Of a stretch of DNA of 42,961 bases, positions 3,154 through 41,684 are shown one piece after another. A program made the translations under genes and the position numbers. Position 1 is the stretch's first letter. Each line of letters begins with the position of its first letter. This DNA is from a virus, in the IMG/VR virus record IMGVR_UViG_3300042876_001159, positions 1-42,961 of that record. One strand, 5' to 3'. A model generated the notes under the pieces. It was not told the origin of the DNA and searched no databases. It saw only the letters and a list, made by a program, of their open reading frames with translations.

Positions 3154-3428
3154 GCTTCGTCCCCCAAGTGATTCAGAAGGATCTAGCCGTCGTGAAGGAC
3201 GACACCGGTCGGATCGTCGCGACGTGCGTCCTGCACGGTGGGCTGCGCTTCACGTCGGCAGCGCTCGCGCAGTTCGCGAAAGTCTGTGAGGGCGCGACGT
3301 GTCAGCCGGATCCTGTTGTGCGTCAGTCGCTAGAGGAATGGGCGAAGGCACAGCGCGCGCAGCGTATCGATCGGTTCGCTGATCCGAACGATCCGCCGTT
3401 TCACGAGTTCGCACAGGCGCGCCGCTGA
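3150..3428 (+). CDS. Hypothetical protein
   Basis: A 92-residue protein overlapping the upstream gene by four bases (ATGA) and sharing one base with the replication gene downstream. The N-terminal half reads as short strands around a single Cys (VATCVLHGGLRF); the C-terminal half is a charged helix. No family recognised. Its place directly before the replication gene suggests co-expression with it. Confidence 0.55.
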   Translation: MSFVPQVIQKDLAVVKDDTGRIVATCVLHGGLRFTSAALAQFAKVCEGATCQPDPVVRQSLEEWAKAQRAQRIDRFADPNDPPFHEFAQARR

Positions 3429-4387
3429 TGCCACCACGCAAGACCGCTAAGAAGCCCCCGCTGAGCTGGTTCCCGCTGGGCCCGCTCGACTGGTTGAAGC
3501 TGTCGGCCGGCCTGCTGCCGCAGGAGGCTGGCGCGCTGATGAACCTGATGATGGCCGCATTCGGTGAGATCGACGAGCCCTGCACGATCCCGGCAGAGCC
3601 CGCGCGCCTCCATCTGATGAGTGGGCTGGGTGCGTCCTGGGCGATGCACGCCGATCGCGTGCTGCACGGCTGGGAGCGCACCGAGTCGGGTCGGCTGCGG
3701 CACACCTGGCTGTATCAGCGCTGGCAGGAGCAGATGGAGAAGGCGAGCGCGCGGCGCACCGCCGGGAAGGCTGGCGCGGACCGGAAGTGGCGCGGCAAGC
3801 GGGCCCAGACCGAGCTCGAGCTGAGCCCCGAGCCTGCCGCGGCGCAGGCCTCGGCGCCGACGAACGCGGAGCTCGCGCGGGATAGCATTGCCATCCCAAA
3901 TGATGGCAATGCCATGCAAAACGATGGCATTGCCATCGATTTGGCATGCAGAGGTTTAAGAGGTGGTGCTCCTCCTTCGGAGGAGAGCACCACCCCCACG
4001 CACGCGAAGGCGCGCGAGGGGGCGCTTGAGGCGCCCCTCGCGGCCCTCGCGGCGCGGGGCCCCGACGACCCAGACGTGGCCGCGGCCGAGCGCTGGATCG
4101 CGGATCGTGCGGCCGACCGCGCGGATCTCGCGCAGGCGGTCGAGCAGGCGCTCACGGCGTTGCTCGGTCCACCACCCGCCGCGCACGGCAGCTCGGCCAG
4201 TGCGCGGCACGCCCATCGCAGTGCGCTCGCGTTTCGCGATCGCCGACGACGGGAGATTCGCCAGGAGCTGCTGCTCGAGCGACACGCCGAGTATCGCGCC
4301 GAGCGATCTCACGCGGGGCCACGTCACGCCAGCGGACCGGAGCCAACGCCGGTCGGGCGACTCGCGGTCGCCGGCGGTGCCCGATGA
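3428..4387 (+). CDS. DUF1376/YdaU-type phage replication protein
   Basis: A 319-residue protein. The N-terminal domain (residues 13-110) has the layout of DUF1376: SWFPLGPLDWLKL, then LLPQEAGALMNLMM, then a short wHTH-like block ending in a W-containing strand. It is followed by the family's typical RRTAGKAGADRKWRGK segment (about 107-122) and an Asn/Ala/Met-rich linker. Such proteins sit at replication initiator positions in many prophages. The linker DNA (3881-3994) carries inverted repeats and a strong hairpin and could be the phage origin, as lambda ori lies inside gene O. The C-terminus (about 195-319) is Ala/Arg-rich and divergent. Family likely, exact role inferred. Confidence 0.7.
   Translation: MPPRKTAKKPPLSWFPLGPLDWLKLSAGLLPQEAGALMNLMMAAFGEIDEPCTIPAEPARLHLMSGLGASWAMHADRVLHGWERTESGRLRHTWLYQRWQEQMEKASARRTAGKAGADRKWRGKRAQTELELSPEPAAAQASAPTNAELARDSIAIPNDGNAMQNDGIAIDLACRGLRGGAPPSEESTTPTHAKAREGALEAPLAALAARGPDDPDVAAAERWIADRAADRADLAQAVEQALTALLGPPPAAHGSSASARHAHRSALAFRDRRRREIRQELLLERHAEYRAERSHAGPRHASGPEPTPVGRLAVAGGAR
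3881..3994. repeat. Iteron-like inverted repeats and hairpin inside the replication gene (candidate ori)
   Basis: GATGGCAATGCCAT (3902-3915) and ATGGCATTGCCATC (3924-3937) are a perfect 14-bp inverted repeat with an 8-nt loop. A third related copy, GATAGCATTGCCATC, lies at 3881-3895 and a partial one (TTGGCATGC) at 3941-3949. Just after comes a hairpin with arms 3962-3975 and 3979-3994, 14 pairs with a 2-nt bulge (3986-3987) and a 3-nt loop. The repeat stretch is markedly A+T-richer than its surroundings. Origin function is inferred from the lambda O precedent. Confidence 0.5.
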
Positions 4388-4878
4388 GCGCCACGTCGAG
4401 CGTGATTAGTCACGCGATGATGTTCGCGGTCGGCGCTGTCGTCGGGATGGGCGGGCTGGTGCTGCTGTTCGCCGCAGAGGCGCGCGGCCTCCTGCACGAA
4501 CCGAGCGGCGAGATCCCGGAGGAGCCGGCGATTCGAGCAACAGCCACGGTCGATCGCCCGGACGCGCCTGAGCCCACGGAGGCGGATGACGACGTCGCCG
4601 CGCGCATGCTCGACGGAGTCGCAGTGGAGATCGCGCCTGGCGAAGTGCCGATCGTCGGCGATCGGCTCCGCTACGTGTTCCCGCTGAACACCGAGCCGAC
4701 GCGTCAGGCGTCGCATCAGCTCGCGGACCTCCTCGTCGTCCTGCTCACGCAGCTCGAGATTCACGGCAAGCGCCACGGCTACGGGCAGACGGCTGCGAAC
4801 ATGGTGCAGCTGCGGCTGCGCGCCGAAGCGCTGCGCGCTGAGCTCTCGCCGGCACAGCCCGAGGAGTCTCCGGTATGA
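4384..4878 (+). CDS. Membrane-anchored hypothetical protein
   Basis: A 164-residue protein with one hydrophobic segment at residues 8-31 (gly/ala/val-rich), a disordered acidic linker (about 35-75) and a helical C-terminal domain (about 95-155). It overlaps the genes on both sides by four bases (ATGA). Not recognised. The anchored topology in a replication-region operon is unusual but carries no clear functional message. Confidence 0.55.
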   Translation: MSATSSVISHAMMFAVGAVVGMGGLVLLFAAEARGLLHEPSGEIPEEPAIRATATVDRPDAPEPTEADDDVAARMLDGVAVEIAPGEVPIVGDRLRYVFPLNTEPTRQASHQLADLLVVLLTQLEIHGKRHGYGQTAANMVQLRLRAEALRAELSPAQPEESPV

Positions 4879-5447
4879 GGGGCGTCCGTCGACTGATCCC
4901 AGCCCCCGTGGTCGAAGGCCTGCAGCTCGGCCCTAACTCGCCACTGCTGCAGCACCCCACGCGTCGGCCCCAGACCCGCGAAGAGGACGAACAGATCGCC
5001 CTCGTGCGGATGATCTTCGGACCCGCGCGAAAGGGTGAACCGTACACGGAGCCGCTGCCGGGCCTGCCGCGTGATCTCCGATTCCTCGCCGCCGTGCCGA
5101 ACGGCGGCGGGCGATCCGCCGCGCAGGCGGGACGATTCAAAGCCCAAGGCGTGCGCCGTGGCTATCCGGATCTCATCCTCGATGTCGCGCGCGGCGGCTG
5201 GCACGGCTTGCGCCTCGAGTTCAAGCCGACAGATGGCCCGAAGCCGAGGCCTGAGCAGACCGGCTGGCTCGAGGAGCTGGGGGCGCAGGGCTATTGCGCC
5301 GCCAGTGCGCGAGGGGTCGACGCCGCGTTCGCGTTGCTACTGCGCTACGTGCAGCTCAGTTGCAGCGCGGTCGGCCCCTGCGAAGACTGCGCGGCGACGC
5401 TCGCCCAGCTCCCAGGCGTGACGCTGCACGGGATGGTGCGACCGTGA
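4875..5447 (+). CDS. VRR-NUC domain nuclease
   Basis: A 190-residue protein. Residues 72-155 match the VRR-NUC fold, a PD-(D/E)XK nuclease branch found in phage Holliday-junction resolvase-like enzymes: AVPNGGGRS, then GVRRGYPDLIL with the catalytic Asp, then LRLEFK supplying the Glu-x-Lys pair, then PEQTGWLEELGAQGY and a final helix. All expected catalytic residues are present. The likely role is cutting branched DNA during replication or before packaging. GAGGAG at 4861-4866 precedes the ATG. A C-terminal extension with three Cys (about 159-173) is not typical for the domain. Confidence 0.8.
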   Translation: MRGVRRLIPAPVVEGLQLGPNSPLLQHPTRRPQTREEDEQIALVRMIFGPARKGEPYTEPLPGLPRDLRFLAAVPNGGGRSAAQAGRFKAQGVRRGYPDLILDVARGGWHGLRLEFKPTDGPKPRPEQTGWLEELGAQGYCAASARGVDAAFALLLRYVQLSCSAVGPCEDCAATLAQLPGVTLHGMVRP

Positions 5448-31997: not shown

Positions 31998-32026
31998 GGG
32001 GGGATCATCCGTCAGGATGTCCCCCC
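31998..32026. terminator. Strong bidirectional intrinsic terminator
   Basis: Arms 31998-32010 and 32015-32026 (GGGGGGA-CATCC with one bulged T, loop GTCA, GGATG-TCCCCCC) form a 12-pair hairpin between convergent genes. There is no long T run on either side, so it may act partly as a transcription block; position between convergent operons supports the call. Confidence 0.7.
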
Positions 32027-32078
32027 GCCGTCATTTCAGCGTCAGCCACCACCTTACACGTGCGCCGGAGCCGCGTGA

Positions 32079-32705
32079 CTACCCCGACAGCGCCACGGAT
32101 TGAGTTGGGGTTTCGCCTCGGCGAGTCTCGCGCGCCGACATGTGGTGTAACCGACGCGCAGCGGCGGCGAGCTCGCGCTCATCAGCAAAAAGTGCCGCCC
32201 ACCTACGCTGTGCACGCTCGCTTTGTGGCACATTTGCGGCTAGCCACCGATCGAAGCGCGAGGTCGCCGGCGCGTGATTCTGCAGGTAATCCATCGCAAG
32301 CGCAATCTGCTCTACAAGCACGCGAATCGGCCGAGACCAGCCAAGCGACTCGCGGGCGAGTGGCGGCAGGGTCTCCGGTCCATCATCCTCGCTTTCCGCT
32401 ATGCGCGACCACCGCAGCATGTCCCCCTCCTGTGCATAGTTCCACGGGTGCCGGACATAGTGACTTGTGAGGTCCCAGAGCACCGTAAAGGTTGCGGAGC
32501 TCACGTCGAGCTTCCCTTGGGACGCTAGCACACTGAGCTGATGTCGCGGGACGGCAAAGCGCGAACGAATAGAGTCGACTAGTGCGACATGCTCAGCGCG
32601 CCGAGCGGCGCGAAGCGAAGCAACGCCCGAGACCAAGGCATACACGATCAGCGCGATGACGATCAGCAAAACCAGACCGGTCATAGATCCCCCCCCGAGG
32701 CTCAT
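32079..32705 (-). CDS. Membrane protein of the cargo island
   Basis: A 208-residue protein. One N-terminal membrane segment (about residues 9-28, GLVLLIVIALIVYALVSG) is followed by a cytoplasmic-type helical domain with several conserved-looking Trp/Tyr (HYVRHPWNYAQEGDMLRW). ATG 32705 overlaps the stop of the upstream gene (ATGA) with AAGAAGGGGAG beside it; ATG 32684 is an alternative. With the adjacent gene it forms a two-membrane-protein pair. Candidate roles are superinfection exclusion or abortive infection, but no family is recognised. Confidence 0.6.
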   Translation of the reverse strand: MSLGGGSMTGLVLLIVIALIVYALVSGVASLRAARRAEHVALVDSIRSRFAVPRHQLSVLASQGKLDVSSATFTVLWDLTSHYVRHPWNYAQEGDMLRWSRIAESEDDGPETLPPLARESLGWSRPIRVLVEQIALAMDYLQNHAPATSRFDRWLAANVPQSERAQRRWAALFADERELAAAARRLHHMSARETRRGETPTQSVALSG

Positions 32706-33106
32706 CTCCCCTTCTTTTGGTCAGGCTTCAGTCTTGCCACTCTGTCTTCTGCCGTCTCCCGAAGGTCGTCTTCGTCCCCGAGCAACTTCTCTACCTGAGC
32801 AACTTGAAGCTTCTGCTTGTCAGAAATGAACATGACGCGCCAGGCCCGCTCCTGCTGGGCAAGACGTTGCACTGTGCGCTCTTTCTCGTCAATCGCTAGT
32901 TGCCATCCTCTTTCACGGCGGCGATCAGCCATCCAGCGAAAGAAGAGCGAGGCCGCCAGAACAGCGACGATCACCCCCACCGTCGGCCAAGGTCCCAACA
33001 AACCGACCAACCGCGAGAGCATTCCCTCAAGAACGGGTAATGCTTCGAGTATCGCATCAGGAGTCTGTGTAGAGTAGGCCGAAACCGGTCCAAAGGTTCC
33101 CGTCAT
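32702..33106 (-). CDS. Membrane protein with coiled-coil tail
   Basis: A 134-residue protein. One membrane segment (about residues 45-60, PTVGVIVAVLAASLFF) follows a 40-residue leader, then a long charged coiled-coil (about 60-125, with ERTVQRLAQQERAW and EKLLGDEDDLRETAEDR). ATG 33106 is chosen; GTG 33133 would add nine residues. Codons and base composition are less G+C-rich than in the virion genes. Partner to the overlapping downstream membrane protein. Confidence 0.55.
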   Translation of the reverse strand: MTGTFGPVSAYSTQTPDAILEALPVLEGMLSRLVGLLGPWPTVGVIVAVLAASLFFRWMADRRRERGWQLAIDEKERTVQRLAQQERAWRVMFISDKQKLQVAQVEKLLGDEDDLRETAEDRVARLKPDQKKGR

Positions 33107-33146
33107 GCGATGCACTCGGTTACCCGGGGCCAAGGCAAGTACAAGC

Positions 33147-33362
33147 TCATCGCGAGAACGACGTCATTTGAGCGCCGCCGCCGCGCGGTCCGAGCTTGTT
33201 CGCAATCTCTTCGAACTGCTCGGTGACGAGGCGCGATGTCCCATCCGCGAGTAGCAGAAGCGTTCCAGTCGGGTCGCCAAGCGGCGAAACCGCGAGGACG
33301 TGGTCCAAGTTGACGAGCAGGGCTGCCCCCGTGCTCTCTGTGAGTCGCATCCAGTTAGACAT
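33147..33362 (-). CDS. Small FlbD-like hypothetical protein
   Basis: A 71-residue protein. The pattern WMRLTESTGAALLVNLDHV, then LLLLADGTSRLVTEQFEEI resembles FlbD-type small proteins (a strand-turn-strand plus helix), a loose likeness only. ATG 33362 is chosen; a longer frame from 33512 gives an unconvincing basic N-terminus. Function unknown. Confidence 0.45.
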   Translation of the reverse strand: MSNWMRLTESTGAALLVNLDHVLAVSPLGDPTGTLLLLADGTSRLVTEQFEEIANKLGPRGGGAQMTSFSR

Positions 33363-33520
33363 GTGAGAACCGTTTAGGTAGGTGAAGGGTTTCTTGTTGG
33401 CATCGCACTGGGCTGTGCCCATGGGTCCAGATCTCGTTCTTCGGGCAGGCGTCCGGGGACTCCGACACCTCTGGACTGCACTCCCCGCGGGCGACGAGGG
33501 GCCTTTCTGCACCCAGCTTC
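33363..33520. other. Gap within the cargo island
   Basis: 158 bp between two minus-strand genes. It contains CCCC/GGGG self-complementary sequence (about 33482-33500) but no clear promoter or T tract. Nothing further can be supported. Confidence 0.3.
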
Positions 33521-33844
33521 CTACTCATCCAGCGGAGCGGCCTGATTCCACCCCACTTCCGCGTTGAAGTCGCACGCGTCCATCGTCAGCCCGAAGCTGA
33601 GCAGCAGGCGTCGTGCGACGTCCTGCAGTTCGGTTCGTGACTGCTCGACAACGGACACGACACGGGGCTCGCCGGACTCGCGGTAACCATCCGCCGTCTG
33701 CAGACGCAGAATCCACCAAGCCTCGTCTGGCGGATAACCTGCCCGCAGCTCCCACTGGTGGATGGGATCGTTAGTGGTGCCGCGAAGATGCCAGTCGTGG
33801 CTCTTCAGAAGGTCAGAAATGCGTACCGGATCCGATTGTCTCAT
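33521..33844 (-). CDS. Hypothetical cargo protein
   Basis: A 107-residue protein with GAGGAG 6 nt before ATG. Strand-rich N-terminal half (WHLRGTTNDPIHQWELRAG, then WWILRLQTADGY), then a helix. Not recognised. The good ribosome site argues it is a real gene. Confidence 0.5.
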   Translation of the reverse strand: MRQSDPVRISDLLKSHDWHLRGTTNDPIHQWELRAGYPPDEAWWILRLQTADGYRESGEPRVVSVVEQSRTELQDVARRLLLSFGLTMDACDFNAEVGWNQAAPLDE

Positions 33845-33874
33845 GTGGGGCTCCTCGCCGTCGTCCGCGGCTCA

Positions 33875-34102
33875 CTACACAGTGGGGTTGTCGCGCTGAC
33901 ACCGCGGGCACACGATCGCCTTCGGATCGATGAGCTCCCGGCAGAACCGGCACGGCTTCCGATTTCCTGACGACACGGCCACGATGATCACGCCGACCGG
34001 GCCAAGTATGAGGCTCAGCAAAGCCCCGGCGCAGCCTTGCCCTTTGCGGCTGCCGATGATGGCTCCGATGACGCCGCACGCAAGCCAGAACACAAAGAGC
34101 AT
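33875..34102 (-). CDS. Two-helix membrane protein with C-terminal zinc ribbon
   Basis: A 75-residue protein. Two hydrophobic segments (about residues 1-18 and 25-43, FWLACGVIGAIIGS and GALLSLILGPVGVIIVAV) with a short SRKGQG turn are followed by a CRFC-CPRC zinc ribbon (residues 51-68). This is a widespread bacterial small-protein layout (TM hairpin plus zinc ribbon) with no proven function. GGAGAG precedes ATG. It lies 4 nt downstream of the HsdR-N-like gene, so the two are probably co-transcribed. Confidence 0.65.
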   Translation of the reverse strand: MLFVFWLACGVIGAIIGSRKGQGCAGALLSLILGPVGVIIVAVSSGNRKPCRFCRELIDPKAIVCPRCQRDNPTV

Positions 34103-34106
34103 CGCT

Positions 34107-34931
34107 CTACTCTCCGCTGTCGACTGCGATCGCTGCGGATGCGGCGTCCGCGCTGTCGGCCGTCGTCGCGGCGCCGACCGTCGCAGCCTTCTTCACGGCA
34201 CGCGCTGCGGCGCGGTTCACTGCGCGCCGCGCCGCCTCCGCGCGCTCGCCCTCGAGGCACTCGCGCTTGATCACCTCGGTGGTCAGCACCTGCGCGATCT
34301 CTTCTGTGGCGACCTTGGCGTCTGGCGAGACCTTCCGGATCTCACGGCGGAGCAGATCAAGCACCGGATCCGACTGCAGCAGCGCCGCGATCGCAAAGCG
34401 GCTCAGTGCCTCGCGCTGCGCGTGGTAGTCGGCAAGGCCGGCCTTCGCGAGCCCCTCACGGCTCAGCAGCCACAGGCGCTCAATGTCGGCATCCTTCCGG
34501 TGCGAGAGATCGAGGAGCGGCAGGTCGACGACGAGCGCGGCAGAGATCGGCTTGGCGAAGCTGATGCGATATGCCTGCCATTGCAGTCCGTTCGTCAGCA
34601 CGACCCACTCGCAGCCCTGGTTTGCGGCGTAGTCGACGGCCTGCTTCACGTGCTGCTCCTTTAGCGAGCTCCCGATCGCCTTCACTTCGATCAGCAGCGC
34701 AAGCGCGCTATCGATCTTGATCGCGAGATCGCAGTAGGTGCCCCGGATTGCGTACTCGCTGGTGATCTCAGTGTACTTGTCGAACCCGAAGAGGTCGGCA
34801 AGCAAGTCGGTCACGATCACGACCGTATCCGACTCGTTCACATCGCGAGCCTTCGCAGCTTCTAGGATAGGCTGGAAACGCTTCAGGGCCGCGCTGATGC
34901 GCTCGGCGGTCTTCTTTGCAACGGGTGGCAT
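34107..34931 (-). CDS. Stand-alone HsdR N-terminal-type nuclease
   Basis: A 274-residue protein. Residues about 15-145 match the N-terminal domain of type I restriction HsdR subunits (HSDR_N): VTDLLADLFGFDKYTEITSEY, then RGTYCDLAIKI with a catalytic Asp, then ALLIEVKAIG with the Glu-x-Lys pair, then HVKQAVDYAANQGCEWVVLTNG. The helicase part, HsdM and HsdS are absent. The C-terminus is helical with an Ala-rich, possibly disordered tail. Stand-alone members occur in cargo and defence regions; here it could act on incoming DNA or have lost activity. PD-(D/E)XK residues look intact. Confidence 0.75.
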   Translation of the reverse strand: MPPVAKKTAERISAALKRFQPILEAAKARDVNESDTVVIVTDLLADLFGFDKYTEITSEYAIRGTYCDLAIKIDSALALLIEVKAIGSSLKEQHVKQAVDYAANQGCEWVVLTNGLQWQAYRISFAKPISAALVVDLPLLDLSHRKDADIERLWLLSREGLAKAGLADYHAQREALSRFAIAALLQSDPVLDLLRREIRKVSPDAKVATEEIAQVLTTEVIKRECLEGERAEAARRAVNRAAARAVKKAATVGAATTADSADAASAAIAVDSGE

Positions 34932-34972
34932 AGAGTGGGTGAGGGTTCAATGATCCGTGCGGCGAACGTGAT

Positions 34973-35527
34973 CTACGGCAGGGCCTTGCCGCCGCAGTCT
35001 TGGTAGAACTGCGCGAAGGTCTGACCCGCGTCGGCAGGCACTGCGAAGCGAGGAAAAACAGCGCGGCCCGTCACTACCGGGTACTTCATGCGCACCGTGT
35101 CGCCAGCAGCACCCAGAACGTTGCGCGTGAATCCGTTCTGGTCGTTCAACTGCAGATAGGTCTCACGCACGGTGTCACTGCGCTTCGCGGACCGGTCACC
35201 GCCGGAGGACATCGGCGAGCTGCCCAGTAACTGCCACGAATCCCTAGGCGCCTTACCGAACTTCAGGCGCAGATCCGTGTCTGCGGTACCGCGCGGGTCC
35301 GCGAGATAGACGAAAACAACTAGCGCAGATCCCGTGAGTGGCGTGCACACCCATTCGAGCGTCGCGCCGTCGTCCGCTGTCAGCACGAGCTGCCGACGTG
35401 CGGCTTCAGGGACGGTGAAGTCCGGCACTGCCACACTCTTCAGCTGCGCCGCGAGCCGCGCGGGAGCCAGAGCCACAGATGCGAGCGCGCTGAATGCAAG
35501 CGCGCGTGCGCGGTGTGAGTTCAACAA
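34973..35527 (-). CDS. Secreted protein of the cargo island
   Basis: A 184-residue protein with a signal peptide: basic start, hydrophobic core (about residues 9-20, LAFSALASVALAP), then ARLAAQ as a likely cleavage site near residue 27. The mature part is beta-rich (QLVLTADDGATLEWVCTPLTG) with two Cys that could pair. The only available start is TTG 35527 (or TTG 35524), as a stop lies 19 nt upstream; the start is therefore uncertain. A periplasmic or surface lysogenic-conversion role is possible. Confidence 0.6.
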   Translation of the reverse strand: MLNSHRARALAFSALASVALAPARLAAQLKSVAVPDFTVPEAARRQLVLTADDGATLEWVCTPLTGSALVVFVYLADPRGTADTDLRLKFGKAPRDSWQLLGSSPMSSGGDRSAKRSDTVRETYLQLNDQNGFTRNVLGAAGDTVRMKYPVVTGRAVFPRFAVPADAGQTFAQFYQDCGGKALP

Positions 35528-35691
35528 TGTCGTCGTTCGCGAGAGTCATCACTCCCGCCGGCACCTTGTGTGCCGACGGGTGGAGCTCAATCGCGGCCCA
35601 GCGTCGAGGCGCGAGTCCTGCCGTTTCGGAGCGCGACTGTCAGACCCCCGACGGGGTAAGTCAATGTCGCGCAACACGATACGTACTGCTC

Positions 35692-35719
35692 TGGACGACC
35701 GCCGGAAACCGAATAAAAT
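35692..35719 (+). promoter_or_regulatory. Candidate rightward promoter
   Basis: TGGACG (35692-35697), 16 nt, then TAAAAT (35714-35719), which matches a sigma-70 -10 at five of six positions. Expected transcript start is near 35726. It would drive the small gene at 35788 and then run against the 3' end of the HTH regulator gene. Lies in the 260-bp gap between the cargo island and that gene; no other signal was found there. Confidence 0.4.
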
Positions 35720-35787
35720 CCGAACCAGTACAGACCCGCCCGCGTTGGCGGTCCGGCCGTCTAACCTCCCTGCTCTACATCACTGCC

Positions 35788-36015
35788 GTGGCTGCCGAAC
35801 CCATCGTCCTCGTCGCCCGCACGGACATCCTGCAACCGAGGGTGCGCGCGGGTGAACACGTGATCTGGAACCCGGTGACGGGAGAAATAACTGCGGTGCG
35901 TGAGCTTGCAACTACCCCCGGCGTCCTCGCGGGCCTGCTGGCGGACGACGTGCTCATCCCGCTTTCGGTCGGCGACGCGATCCAGGCGGGGCAGCTGCTG
36001 GCTGATGCGGGGTAG
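35788..36015 (+). CDS. Small protein convergent with the regulator
   Basis: A 75-residue protein starting GTG; the frame is open further upstream but less protein-like. Residues read as strands and helices in a plausible order (PIVLVARTDILQPRVRAGEHV, then LLADDVLIPLSVGDAI). It overlaps the 3' end of the regulator gene on the other strand by 62 bp. No ribosome site is visible, so it could be weakly or leaderless-translated. Not recognised. Confidence 0.4.
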   Translation: MAAEPIVLVARTDILQPRVRAGEHVIWNPVTGEITAVRELATTPGVLAGLLADDVLIPLSVGDAIQAGQLLADAG

Positions 36016-37492: not shown

Positions 37493-38223
37493 TGGCTGCG
37501 CGTGCCCTGAACCGCCTCGTGCTGCCCGTGGCACGACTCACGAGCTACCCGCAGGCCGAGACCACGAACCGCCGGCGCGGCGTGTTCCGCGTGTCGCCCG
37601 GCCGCGCGATCGATGATCTGCGGCAGGAGCTGGAGCGCGCCGGTGCGTTGCGCGCAACCCTCGAGCTCGACGTGCGGGATGGTGACATCAAGAACGACGG
37701 CCAGCTGCGCGCGAACTCGCGGCCGTTCTCTCCGCGCGTCGTGGTGAGCTTTGAGCACCCGACCGCCGGCTGGCTGCGCTACCCGTGCGACACGTTCAGC
37801 GATCACCTGGACAACATCCGGGCGATCGCGCTCGCCCTCGAGGCGCTGCGCGCGGTCGAGCGGTACGGGGTCGTGCGGCGCGCGGAGCAGTACGCCGGCT
37901 GGAAGGCGCTGCCGGCGAGCACGGCGCCGACGCTGACGACGGAGGCGGCCGCCGCGGTTCTTGCCGAGTACGGCTACCCGGGCGCGCCGGCGGGGACGAT
38001 TTTTGCGCCGAGCACGCACATAAGCCTGCGTCAGCAGTTGCGGAACGCCATTCTCGCCAGCCGCGACGAGTACGATGCGGCGCGGCGGATCGCGCGCAAG
38101 CGTGCGCATCCTGACGTCGCGGCGTCGCAGGGTGTGGTGTCGGCCCACGACCCGCGCGCCGCCTGGGATCAGGTCGAAGCCGCGTGCGCCGTGCTCGATG
38201 CCCTCCATGGGATCCGTCGATGA
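37492..38223 (+). CDS. J-domain-like protein
   Basis: A 243-residue protein. The C-terminal 60 residues have a J-domain pattern with the HPD triad at residues 206-208 (RKRAHPDVAAS), preceded by a helix (DEYDAARRIA) and followed by WDQVEAACAVL. The N-terminal part (residues 10-150) includes DNIRAIALALEALRAVERYG and GWKALPA, blocks I associate with phage/prophage J-domain-containing proteins. It could recruit DnaK to phage assembly or replication. The pairing with a ParB-like gene one gene further on is notable. Confidence 0.65.
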   Translation: MAARALNRLVLPVARLTSYPQAETTNRRRGVFRVSPGRAIDDLRQELERAGALRATLELDVRDGDIKNDGQLRANSRPFSPRVVVSFEHPTAGWLRYPCDTFSDHLDNIRAIALALEALRAVERYGVVRRAEQYAGWKALPASTAPTLTTEAAAAVLAEYGYPGAPAGTIFAPSTHISLRQQLRNAILASRDEYDAARRIARKRAHPDVAASQGVVSAHDPRAAWDQVEAACAVLDALHGIRR

Positions 38224-38483
38224 GAGCGGAGTACATCCTGCACCGCTCCGTTCCCGAGGGCTTCGCCATCCTCGGCACTGTCGAGGCCGACAGCTACGAC
38301 GAGGCCCGCACGCTCGGCCGCGTGATGCACGGCGGCACCGTGCTCGCGGCCCACAGCAAGATCGCGCCGCCGCCGGTGCTCCAGGCGGGCCGTCGCGTCG
38401 ACCTCCGGGCGGATGCCGGCGAGGTCGCGACTCTCTCCACCTACTACATCCGGGCGCACGCGCGCCACCGGAGGAACTCGTGA
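38220..38483 (+). CDS. Small protein between J-domain and ParB-like genes
   Basis: An 87-residue protein overlapping both neighbours by four bases. Strand and helix order (MRAEYILHR, then VEADSYDEARTLGRVMHG) suggests a small alpha/beta fold. The tail is basic (RAHARHRRN). Not recognised. Confidence 0.5.
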   Translation: MRAEYILHRSVPEGFAILGTVEADSYDEARTLGRVMHGGTVLAAHSKIAPPPVLQAGRRVDLRADAGEVATLSTYYIRAHARHRRNS

Positions 38484-39988
38484 GCCAGCCCGACACCCTG
38501 CGCTTCCTCGCGATCGAGCGCTTGCGCCCGTCGCCCTTCAACCCGCGGCGCACGTTCGCGGCCGAGCAGCTCGCCGACCTGCGGAGCTCGATCAATGCCG
38601 TCGGGATCCTGACGCCGTTGATCGCGCGGCCGCATCCCACGGAAGACGGCGCGTATGAGCTCGCCGCAGGCCATCGGCGATTCGCCGTCGCCTCCGAGAT
38701 CGGCCTGCCGACGGTGCCGGTGATCGTGCGCGAGTACTCGGACGACGAGCTGCGCGAGGTCCTGATCATCGAGAACCTCCAGCGGGCCGACGTGCACCCG
38801 CTCGAGGAAGCCGACGCGTTGCAGGCGCTGGTCGACGGCGGGCGCACAGTCGGGCAGATCGCCGAGCGGATCGGGCGCGACGTGCGGTTCGTGAAGCGGC
38901 GGCTTGCGCTGCGGAACCTGTCGCCGGCGGCACGGCAGCTGCTCGCCGACGAGAAGATCAGCCTCGGCGTCGCCCAGGTGCTCGCGAGCGCCAGCGCGGA
39001 GCAGCAGGCCGAGATCCTCAATGATCTGTCGTGGGAGATCGAGGAGGAAGACGTCGGCATCACGGTCTCCGATGTCACCCGAGCGCTCACCGGCGGCGCC
39101 GTGCAGCTGTCGAAGGCCCCGTGGGACCTCACCGATGCGACGCTGCACAAGCAGGCCGGGGCGTGCAGCGTGTGTCCGAAGCGGACCGGCGCGCAGGTCG
39201 AGCTGCTGCCGGAGCTCGGCGGCGACGATCGCTGCCTCGACCGCGAGTGCTACGAGACGAAGGGCGCGAAGCACTCCGCGCGGGTGCTGGTGGAGCTGCA
39301 GCGCTCGCACAAGCGCGTCCTGCAGATCGTGAAGCCCAACTCCGAGGCGGCGAAGGCCAAGGCGCCGGATGCGATCCCGAGCTACGGGAGGGTCCCCAGC
39401 TATGGCGTGAACGGCTGGTACCCCGCGAAGAAGGATGCGCCTGGCGCGGTGCCGGCCGTCATCCGCGATGGGAGCGATGTCGGCACGGTGCAGTGGCTGA
39501 CGCGCACGAAGCCGAAGGCGTCGGCGAGCGCCGGCGCATCGGGCAGCGGGTTCGATCAGGACGAGTACAACCGGAAGCAGAAGGCGCGTGACACGACGAG
39601 CGCGGCGCTCAAGAAGGCGCTGCTCGCCAAGCTGCCGATGGATCTGGTGAAGTCGAGCGTCATCCTCCCGTTGTTTCGGACCCGCGTCTACTGCCAAGCC
39701 GATCTGCGCAAGGCACCGGACGTCAACGGCGTGCTGCACGCGCTAGCGGCGGACGTGATCGCGCGCGTGACCACCCTCTACGGCGACGTGAAGCTCGCGA
39801 AGGATCGCGATCTCGTCGCCGTCGCGAAGGTGCTCAAAGTCGACCTCGCGCCGTTCCAGGCGCAGTACGACGAGCTGGTGAAGCCGCCGGCACCGAAGCC
39901 CGCCGCCAAGCCCGCGGCGAAGTCGAAGGCGAAGTCCGGCGCCAAGAGCAGCCCCTCGAAGGCGAAGACCCGGAAGGTGCCGGCGTGA
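38480..39988 (+). CDS. ParB/Spo0J-like nuclease-domain protein
   Basis: A 502-residue protein. Residues 8-100 match the ParB N-terminal domain: IERLRPSPFNPRR, then VGILTPLIARP, then LAAGHRRFAVA with the CTP-binding-type GxRRF motif, and VLIIENLQRADVHPLEEADAL. An HTH follows (about 110-140, TVGQIAERIGRDVRFVKRRL). A Cys-rich part (CSVCPK, then CLDREC, about 230-255) may bind a metal. The C-terminus is Lys/Ala/Pro-rich. Chromosome-partition ParBs are shorter, so this is the longer phage/mobile-element type, which may act in DNA processing or partition. No parA neighbour is present. Confidence 0.8.
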   Translation: MSQPDTLRFLAIERLRPSPFNPRRTFAAEQLADLRSSINAVGILTPLIARPHPTEDGAYELAAGHRRFAVASEIGLPTVPVIVREYSDDELREVLIIENLQRADVHPLEEADALQALVDGGRTVGQIAERIGRDVRFVKRRLALRNLSPAARQLLADEKISLGVAQVLASASAEQQAEILNDLSWEIEEEDVGITVSDVTRALTGGAVQLSKAPWDLTDATLHKQAGACSVCPKRTGAQVELLPELGGDDRCLDRECYETKGAKHSARVLVELQRSHKRVLQIVKPNSEAAKAKAPDAIPSYGRVPSYGVNGWYPAKKDAPGAVPAVIRDGSDVGTVQWLTRTKPKASASAGASGSGFDQDEYNRKQKARDTTSAALKKALLAKLPMDLVKSSVILPLFRTRVYCQADLRKAPDVNGVLHALAADVIARVTTLYGDVKLAKDRDLVAVAKVLKVDLAPFQAQYDELVKPPAPKPAAKPAAKSKAKSGAKSSPSKAKTRKVPA

Positions 39989-40362
39989 GCACGTCGCCTC
40001 GTCGCGCCCTCGCGCCGCGTCGGCAGGCGGCACCGCGCCGTAGCACAGTGGTGCTGCGCGACGTGGTGCTCGCCTTGGCCGATTCGTGGGAGCGTGAAGC
40101 GCGGCAGCGGAAGCGCGTGAGCCAGCACGACCAGCAGGCCGACACCCTGTCCTACTGCGCGCGCGAGCTCCGCGATCGCGTCGACGAAGCGTTGGGCCCG
40201 GGCACGCTGCTCTCCGTCGCCGAGTACGCGGCGCAGATCGGCAAGCACCGCAACACCGTGCTCAAGTGGGTGAAGCGGGGCGAGCTCCTCGCGCGCCCAA
40301 CCGAGGCCGGCGTGATGATTCCCGTCGGCGCTCGTCGCACGCTCACGGCTGGGGACGGATAA
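39985..40362 (+). CDS. Excisionase-like HTH protein
   Basis: A 125-residue protein with GTG start. The last 45 residues fit a MerR/Xis-type winged helix (LLSVAEYAAQIGKHRNTVLKWVKRGEL, then ARPTEAGVMIPV). Position directly upstream of, and overlapping by one base with, the integrase gene supports an excisionase or recombination directionality factor. The N-terminus is basic and flexible. Confidence 0.65.
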   Translation: MSTSPRRALAPRRQAAPRRSTVVLRDVVLALADSWEREARQRKRVSQHDQQADTLSYCARELRDRVDEALGPGTLLSVAEYAAQIGKHRNTVLKWVKRGELLARPTEAGVMIPVGARRTLTAGDG

Positions 40363-41684
40363 TGGCGCGCTCGAAGAAAGCCTGGGAGATTCGCGTCGGG
40401 GTGCGCCCCTACGTCGTGATCGCGTATGAGCGCGCCGACAAGGAAGGCACGGTCTACCTGCGCTGGTGGCCGCCGGAGGCCACGAACTGGCGGAAGAAGA
40501 GCCTCGGCGTGAAGGTGCGCGACGCCGCGGGTCGGGTGCTGCGCGCGCAGGAGCTGCTCATCGAGGCGGCCGCGCGGGAGCAGTACGCGCAGCTGACGGG
40601 CACCGGTGCTGTCGCCACCACGCCGGCGACCGAGCCCGTGCGCGCGACGCCGCTCACGCTCGGCGAGGCGTGGGCCCTGATCAGCGATCGTGGGCGTGGG
40701 CTCTATCCGACCGACACGGCGCACCGTCGCGAGGTGAAGGCCGCGCTCGCGCACGCCGGCCGCATTCTGGGCCCGGCGCTGCCGTGGGCGGAGGTTCGCC
40801 CTGGCACGATTCGCCAGCTCGGTCGCACCCGCTGTGATGAGGTCCGCGCGAAGGGGGGCCGCGGCCTGCGCGCGGCGGAGGTCACGGTCGGTCGCGTGCT
40901 CACGGTGGGCGCGTGGCTCCGCGATGAAGGCCACATCCCCGCGGATGCGGCGCTGATCGGCCGGCGCTGGCGCGAGGAGATCCGCCGCTACTGGCGCGAG
41001 GCGAGCAACGCGCCGACCGAGTACGAGCCGTCGCGGCCGCGGTACACGCTCGACGAGATGCGGAAGATCCTGCGCTGCTCGGCCGAGCAGGATCCGCGGC
41101 TCGAGCTGGTGCTGGGGCTGGGGGCAGAGCTGCGGCTCGGCCAGGTGCGGCACGCGTACCGCTCGATGCTCACGCTCGCGCCTGACTTTTCGCACGGCAC
41201 CTTCACGCCCCCGACCCGGGGGAAGAAGCGCGCCGCCCCGATCGCGCTGACCCCGGGCCAGCTCGCCCTGGTGCGGCGTGCCCTGACGACCGGCTACCTG
41301 CGGCTCTGTGAGCGCACGCTGCCCGACTACCCGCTGTTCCCGGGTGGGCCGCTGTTGGGCCAGCGCACCGCCGATCCGCACGCCGAGCCGACGCGCGTCG
41401 TGACGCGTGGGGTGATCGACACGACGACGCTGCGCGAGCAGTACCGCCGTTGTGAGGCGGCCGCCGGCATCACGCGCTTGCCTGGGCGTGGCTGGTACGG
41501 CATTCGCCGGCAGAGCACCGACGCCTTCCTCGATGCGGGGGCGACGATGGAGGCGCTGCAGAACTCTGGCGGCTGGGCGGACGAGAAGATGCCGCTCGGC
41601 ACGTACCGCGACTTCACGCGCTCGAAGGCGCGCGATGAGGCTGCTGAGATCCGCGCCAAGGTGCGCGGGGAGGAGTCGGAATGA
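40362..41684 (+). CDS. int: Tyrosine integrase
   Basis: A 440-residue site-specific recombinase. The N-terminal part (about 1-70) includes VRPYVVIAYERADKEGTVYLRWW and reads as an arm-type or core-binding beta domain; residues about 95-200 are the core-binding helical domain. The catalytic part begins near 225: LRLGQVRHAYRSML holds Arg I, GWYGIRRQSTDAF holds Arg II, and Tyr415 in LGTYRDFT is the nucleophile, preceded by GGWADEKM. The box II His is Tyr here (Y-G-I-R instead of H-x-x-R). It faces the tRNA-Ser genes, whose 3' end is the likely integration site. Confidence 0.85.
   Translation: MARSKKAWEIRVGVRPYVVIAYERADKEGTVYLRWWPPEATNWRKKSLGVKVRDAAGRVLRAQELLIEAAAREQYAQLTGTGAVATTPATEPVRATPLTLGEAWALISDRGRGLYPTDTAHRREVKAALAHAGRILGPALPWAEVRPGTIRQLGRTRCDEVRAKGGRGLRAAEVTVGRVLTVGAWLRDEGHIPADAALIGRRWREEIRRYWREASNAPTEYEPSRPRYTLDEMRKILRCSAEQDPRLELVLGLGAELRLGQVRHAYRSMLTLAPDFSHGTFTPPTRGKKRAAPIALTPGQLALVRRALTTGYLRLCERTLPDYPLFPGGPLLGQRTADPHAEPTRVVTRGVIDTTTLREQYRRCEAAAGITRLPGRGWYGIRRQSTDAFLDAGATMEALQNSGGWADEKMPLGTYRDFTRSKARDEAAEIRAKVRGEESE

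Follow-up and report, generated by a model that had tools for sequence, protein, structure and literature searches.

The locus and its genes

The window analyzed here is the whole of an IMG/VR virus record, a stretch of 42,961 bases with a GC content of 69.6%. In the linker DNA of a divergent DUF1376 gene of this record lie three near-palindromes of 15 bp (GATGGCAWTGCCATC), which start at 3881, 3902 and 3923 and follow each other at steps of exactly 21 bp. The features of the locus are as follows.

3428..4387, plus strand: putative replication-initiator gene, 319 aa, with an N-terminal divergent DUF1376 domain (open reading frame)
3467..3709, plus strand: DUF1376 domain, a predicted winged helix and probable iteron-binding domain, the DNA-binding role being inferred (HMM match; AF2)
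3881..3895, no strand: iteron 1, GATAGCATTGCCATC, a near-palindrome (sequence scan)
3881..3964, no strand: the 84-nt window with the lowest GC in the contig (composition scan)
3902..3916, no strand: iteron 2, GATGGCAATGCCATG, 21 bp from iteron 1 (sequence scan)
3923..3937, no strand: iteron 3, GATGGCATTGCCATC, 21 bp from iteron 2, with which it forms a 14-bp perfect inverted repeat
3938..3949, no strand: weak partial fourth copy, GATTTGGCATGC, doubtful (read from the sequence)
3938..3961, no strand: AT-richer spacer, 42% GC, candidate unwinding element (role inferred)
3962..3994, no strand: hairpin of 14 pairs, GGTGGTGCTCCTCC-TTCG-GAGGAGAGCACCACC, with one bulged A (folding)
4001..4312, plus strand: C-terminal helical region, residues 192-295, possibly a replisome-recruiting part (AF2 model; role inferred)

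The 319-aa product matches the Pfam DUF1376 profile (PF07120) with only 19 bits (E = 0.0019) and so misses the curated cut-off of 30.1, while a profile-profile comparison (hhalign) meets the criterion set for it, with Prob 91 and E = 1e-6 over 113 columns. The product also matches PHROG 9327, a primosomal protein (E = 3.8e-5). In the AF2 model the DUF1376 domain reaches a pLDDT of ~95, and the predicted order of its elements, H-(E)-H-H-E-E-H, fits a winged helix. The top viral Foldseek matches of this model are DUF1376 proteins (E = 5e-7), as the same fold would require, with the caveat that the AF2 alignment included DUF1376 rows, which means that the match is not fully independent. Fold matches in the PDB are weak (E >0.6) and are mostly winged-helix proteins, plasmid initiators among them, and a PDB sequence search with the initiator protein found no solved relative. 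Residues 146-198, which span the repeats, have a pLDDT <50; according to the model, then, the iterons encode a disordered linker adjoining a confident winged-helix-like domain.

No helicase loader was recognized by Pfam or PHROG in the genes that follow the initiator, and the adjoining ORF at 4384-4878 has no match in either collection that would indicate one. A VRR-NUC / Holliday-junction-resolvase-like protein is encoded at 4875-5447. Elsewhere, 38075-39988 encodes a 637-aa ParB-like protein (PHROG 6218, E = 6e-38), and a weak integrase match at 40266-41684 (PHROG 1, E = 7e-5) suggests a temperate phage. The region 32000-36000 is lower in GC (62-65%) than the other parts of the contig, and family matches are lacking for the ORFs tested there.

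Iterons, spacer and hairpin in the linker

A preliminary description of the locus had proposed a perfect 14-bp inverted repeat, with related copies at 3881 and 3941, followed by a 14-pair hairpin, the repeats being richer in A+T than their flanks. The inverted repeat held, as 3902-3915 (GATGGCAATGCCAT) and 3924-3937 (ATGGCATTGCCATC) are exact reverse complements, and 3881-3895 proved to be a nearly equal third copy with one mismatch; the copy at 3941 failed as a full copy, the similarity at 3938-3949 being only partial. Three near-palindromes in regular steps describe these repeats better than a single inverted repeat does. The hairpin held as a structure, composed of 10 + 4 pairs around its TTCG loop, but its excess over chance is weak and it is not family-wide. 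The compositional claim held as well, since no 84-nt window of the contig has a lower GC content than the one that falls on the repeats, with 46% against 69.6% for the contig.

Each iteron contains the core GCAWTGC, and these three copies in 21-nt steps meet the two marks of the linker-origin class described below, namely helical phase and core. The step corresponds to a whole number of helical turns, yet it is not one of the 11, 22 or 33 nt that are common in the family. It also equals seven codons, so that the three copies are in frame and read DSIAIPN DGNAMQN DGIAIDL. No 6/7-nt tandem array is found 3' of the iterons of the window, where the AT-richer spacer and the hairpin stand in its place. 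This spacer, which uses TTG, TTA and AGA codons, is read as a candidate unwinding element because of lambda and of the tandem arrays found 3' in the family. The low-GC region uses AGA and ATA codons, which three large structural genes never use, and the poorest codon adaptation of the gene (in windows of 28 codons) falls in 3881-3964.

Excess of the repeats over chance

A 15-mer scan of the entire window returned six sites at <=3 mismatches, where 0.87 were expected, and those at <=1 mismatch were only the three iterons. The density of 9-mer repeats reaches its contig-wide peak in the 115-nt window at 3881, and DNA folding of 3870-4005 gave z = -8.2.

The coding constraint was taken into account by a null of synonymous-codon shuffles, in which the protein and the codon usage are preserved. 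When the whole gene was shuffled, 17 inverted pairs were observed against 5.3 expected, a number that none of 2000 shuffles reached, and total repeats were also in excess (p = 0.0015). With shuffling restricted to the linker, inverted pairs were as high in 0 of 5000 shuffles and the total gave p = 0.0002. Against the synonymous null, the triple repeat gave p = 0.003 to 0.028 and the 14-nt arm p = 0.01. The stability of the hairpin was only marginal by this measure (p = 0.04 to 0.10), because genes of 70% GC form strong hairpins by chance.

Repeats across the DUF1376 family

The preliminary description had suggested that the conservation of the repeats at the DNA level be checked in relatives. 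No close relative of the phage or of the gene was found in the viral contigs, genomes, phages and plasmids searched, and therefore the DUF1376 family was tested instead. The exact iteron-pair patterns of the window returned chance matches only, in unrelated genes, and the FastTree placement of the window is unreliable, with an end branch of 4.18.

The sample comprised 158 non-redundant DUF1376 genes, drawn from phages, from genomes and from viral contigs, and 188 neighboring ORFs at these loci served as controls. Pairs of identical 9-mers no more than 120 nt apart were counted and set against the numbers obtained in synonymous shuffles. Off-frame direct repeats numbered 504 in the DUF1376 genes against 67 expected (7.5x), and 61 in the controls against 47 expected (1.3x); when only the linker was shuffled, the DUF1376 genes gave 437 against 44 (~10x). 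Protein constraint cannot explain off-frame repeats, given that different frames encode different amino acids. In-frame repeats, on the other hand, were 3.1x the null in the control genes too.

The repeats cluster 300-480 nt from the domain start, just past the DUF1376 domain, with maxima of spacing at 11 nt (60 genes against 4.6), 22 nt (21 against 3.2) and 33 nt (27 against 9.2) and separate maxima at 6, 7 and 14 nt. Of the 60 genes that carry both phased iterons and a tandem array of 5-8-nt units, 57 have the array on the 3' side of the iterons (sign test, 6e-14). The family thus has a fixed order, in which the DUF1376 domain is followed by phased iterons, a short tandem array and the C-terminal region. 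It is possible that the short arrays act as an unwinding or loading element.

The 7-nt array ACCAATA/ACCAAGA, which is read in three frames as NNQEPIT, occurs after the iterons in many DUF1376 genes (loci L010, L191, L217, L238 and L257 among others), at ~340-390 nt from the domain start, and in other DUF1376 genes it is replaced by 6-nt arrays of CAGTCA, CTTCAC or ACAGAT. The hairpin was also considered as a feature of the family, a possibility that was rejected by local folding against the codon null.

Two iteron cores are dominant, GTTSAAC in 45 genes and GCAWTGC in 13, the latter counted at >=2 copies per gene and including the window. The cores cluster on the DUF1376 tree, where 22 changes are needed against 52 when shuffled.

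The core in other initiator families

The 11-bp-phased form of the GCAWTGC core, AGCAATGCNNNAGCAATGCNNNAGC, was used for a blind, DNA-only scan of all viral contigs. At least 120 loci were obtained, and 62 of them had the site inside a DUF1376 ORF, at a median of 66 nt past the domain end and on the coding strand in 65 of 66 cases. A scrambled pattern, used as a control, returned two loci, neither with DUF1376. Ten genes taken from the remaining matches all belonged to replication-initiation or primosomal families: three were further DUF1376 genes, three were Lin1244_N, and the rest were DnaD-like, O-like or replication-initiation genes. Given these results, the iteron core of the window is a recurrent motif of phage initiators rather than a private repeat.

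The linker iterons of Lin1244_N proteins, DnaD-like replisome organizers and O-like initiators share the GCAATGC core of the window, but they differ from it in their N-terminal domains, in their 11-bp phasing and in the absence of its palindromic extension. That these sites are origins is inferred. The 11-bp-phased iteron AGCAATGC was likewise observed in Lin1244_N, DnaD-like and O-like linkers of viral contigs (L282-L401). Some AGCAATGC sites have no long gene or lie opposite the start of a terminase gene, and these intergenic and terminase-side matches are unexplained.

Comparison with known origins

In-gene origins have been known since lambda. The lambda origin occupies the middle of gene O, where several iterons with imperfect inverted symmetry lie beside an AT-rich tract, and lambda O binds its own iterons (PMC7466680). 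Lambda O served as the positive control for the codon-null test, in which it gave p < 0.001 with repeats at the annotated iterons, and lambda P gave nothing in the same test. The window resembles this arrangement in having three iterons between the N- and C-terminal parts of the protein, an adjacent AT-rich tract (the 42% GC of 3938-3961), although shorter than that of lambda, and a spacing near two helical turns (21 bp, against 20-23 bp in lambda). It differs from lambda in that the iteron sequences are unrelated, DUF1376 replaces the N-terminal domain of O, no P-like gene is recognized next to it, and a strong hairpin follows the iterons.

The ydaU gene of the Rac prophage of E. coli also has a DUF1376 domain followed by a linker with TGTTCAAACA-type iterons and an AT-rich stretch, but its core is different, being of the GTTSAAC type. 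Rac has an active origin, oriJ (PMC3945230), whose identity with the iteron site of ydaU is unconfirmed. Alleles of ydaU in E. coli have the domain and linker in common up to ~nt 461-469, after which the C-terminal part is swapped, as would be expected if the domain and the iterons form a single module. No extra third-position conservation was seen in the iterons of close ydaU alleles (9/24 variable against 12/34).

Of ten Bartonella genomes, nine have a Toprim/DnaB-type helicase-like ORF immediately downstream of the DUF1376 gene, with a Pfam check made for two of these ORFs; in the remaining genome (L277) the frame that follows is not intact as read. Gene 4 of the run-off replication (ROR) region, which we take from the gene order to be the DUF1376 gene of Bartonella, lies at an experimentally mapped amplification peak, and the palindromes and GC dip inside this gene were compared with lambda O by the authors (PMC3610622, PMC2697382). 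The name DUF1376 is absent for this gene from the relevant passages of both papers. Where residues are invariant in Bartonella, their codons are also invariant at 8 of 11 linker positions against 6 of 60 domain positions (p = 3.6e-5), and this conservation of codons in the iteron linker is seen only in the more diverged Bartonella set, unlike in the close ydaU alleles. For most of the ten Bartonella genes the 9-mer test fell short of significance, and therefore it misses origins with diverged repeats. The Bartonella gene differs from that of the window in its motifs (TTCAAC boxes and GAAACACCNNNNGGTGTTTC) and in belonging to a domesticated prophage remnant. The GAAACACCNNNNGGTGTTTC inverted repeat is kept near-invariant in the Bartonella linker (L271-L280). 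DUF1376 genes were observed in 24 of 31 genomes of the genus (that of genome G001), and the seven without them are genomes of 2.2-2.7 Mb.

A probable origin inside the initiator gene

The region 3881-3961, perhaps extending to 3994, is likely to be the replication origin of the phage, located inside the gene of its own initiator, the winged-helix DUF1376 protein. Such a lambda-like origin, already put forward in the preliminary description, is supported by the statistics of the element and by nearly every family-wide test, and neither binding nor the start of replication has been tested. The analysis shows that the repeats are present and exceed the codon null, that the GC content of the contig is lowest there, and that iterons at the DNA level occur family-wide; the domain and its disordered linker are predicted by the model.

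In the mechanism that we infer, the winged-helix DUF1376 domain would bind the three palindromic iterons, which would be presented on one face of the DNA because they are two helical turns apart, and the resulting complex would open the adjacent AT-richer spacer. Recruitment of the replicative helicase, or of its loader, would then fall to the C-terminal helical part. Being disordered, the linker would tolerate the amino acids dictated by the origin, and the hairpin may either stabilize the opened state or act on the RNA.

Some observations count against this reading. The cumulative GC skew has its minimum near 38 kb and not at 3.9 kb, bearing in mind that in phage contigs the skew depends on gene content. 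The DUF1376 match lies below the cut-off, no loader is recognized, the 6/7-nt array is absent, the steps are of 21 bp and not 11 bp, and the PDB fold matches are weak. In addition, the iterons of close ydaU alleles lack extra conservation at third positions, and no relative is close enough for the conservation of the window's own repeats to be assessed.

Alternative explanations

The repeats may belong to an in-gene origin and yet be bound by a host protein or by another phage protein rather than by the DUF1376 domain. A shared outside factor would explain why the same 11-bp GCAATGC iteron occurs in DUF1376, Lin1244_N, DnaD-like and O-like linkers and also at some sites without a long gene. 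However, the cores cluster on the DUF1376 tree and the ydaU domain and its iterons travel as one module, both of which point to the cognate domain, and lambda O binds the iterons of its own gene; an outside binder is unlikely. Less likely still is a partition or regulatory operator, unrelated to the initiation of replication and recognized, for instance, by the ParB-like protein of 38075-39988 or by a repressor. The phage does encode such a ParB-like protein, and three successive palindromes resemble operator or centromere clusters, but the position in the linker and the GCAWTGC core are common to many DUF1376 genes, and within the contig the GC content is lowest at this site.

Another possibility is that a protein linker of low complexity expanded by slippage, in which case the DNA repeats would be a by-product of repeated amino acids. 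The three copies of the window are indeed in frame, and in-frame repeats exceed the null even in control genes. Nevertheless, protein repeats do not yield palindromes or inverted copies, none of the 5000 synonymous shuffles reaches the window, the strongest excess in the family is that of off-frame repeats, and the codon choice deviates sharply from the usage of the phage; this explanation can be practically discarded. A more serious alternative concerns only the hairpin, which may act on the RNA as an attenuator, a stability element or a translational element, separately from the origin. It is strong, lies within a transcribed gene and is not general among DUF1376 linkers. On the other hand, the lack of a T-run after it rules out an intrinsic terminator, palindromes are present in the linker of the Bartonella origin gene as well (PMC3610622), and the excess of the hairpin over chance is itself weak; we lean slightly against a role on the RNA.

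Implications for phage replication

The preferred reading remains an origin inside the DUF1376 gene that is recognized by the product of this gene. The literature searched, which did not include subscription papers, yielded no account of DUF1376 genes that contain an origin; the five papers in which DUF1376 is mentioned, once in each, have titles on subjects other than replication origins. A bolder reading, which we would neither favor nor dismiss, is that DUF1376 and several other families of winged-helix initiators share a single kind of in-gene origin, made up of an iteron in 11-bp phase, built on a quasi-palindromic heptamer of the form 3+1+3 (GCAWTGC or GTTSAAC), and then a short tandem array, and exchanged among initiators that are otherwise different. 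To our knowledge, there is no earlier account of an 11-bp-phased core common to several initiator families. If this is true, it would represent a widespread and undescribed class of phage origins, of which the window would be a palindromic 21-bp variant.

DUF1376 is a common domain of phages and prophages whose function is unknown; should the genes that encode it contain their own origins, it would be an origin-binding initiator. Many prophage origins could then be located from sequence alone, and the mosaic swapping of replication modules would be readable from the linker DNA. Linker origins of this type would also offer a sequence basis for the origin of Rac and the run-off origin of Bartonella and, beyond phages, would provide a clear case of a protein whose sequence has yielded to the needs of a DNA signal.
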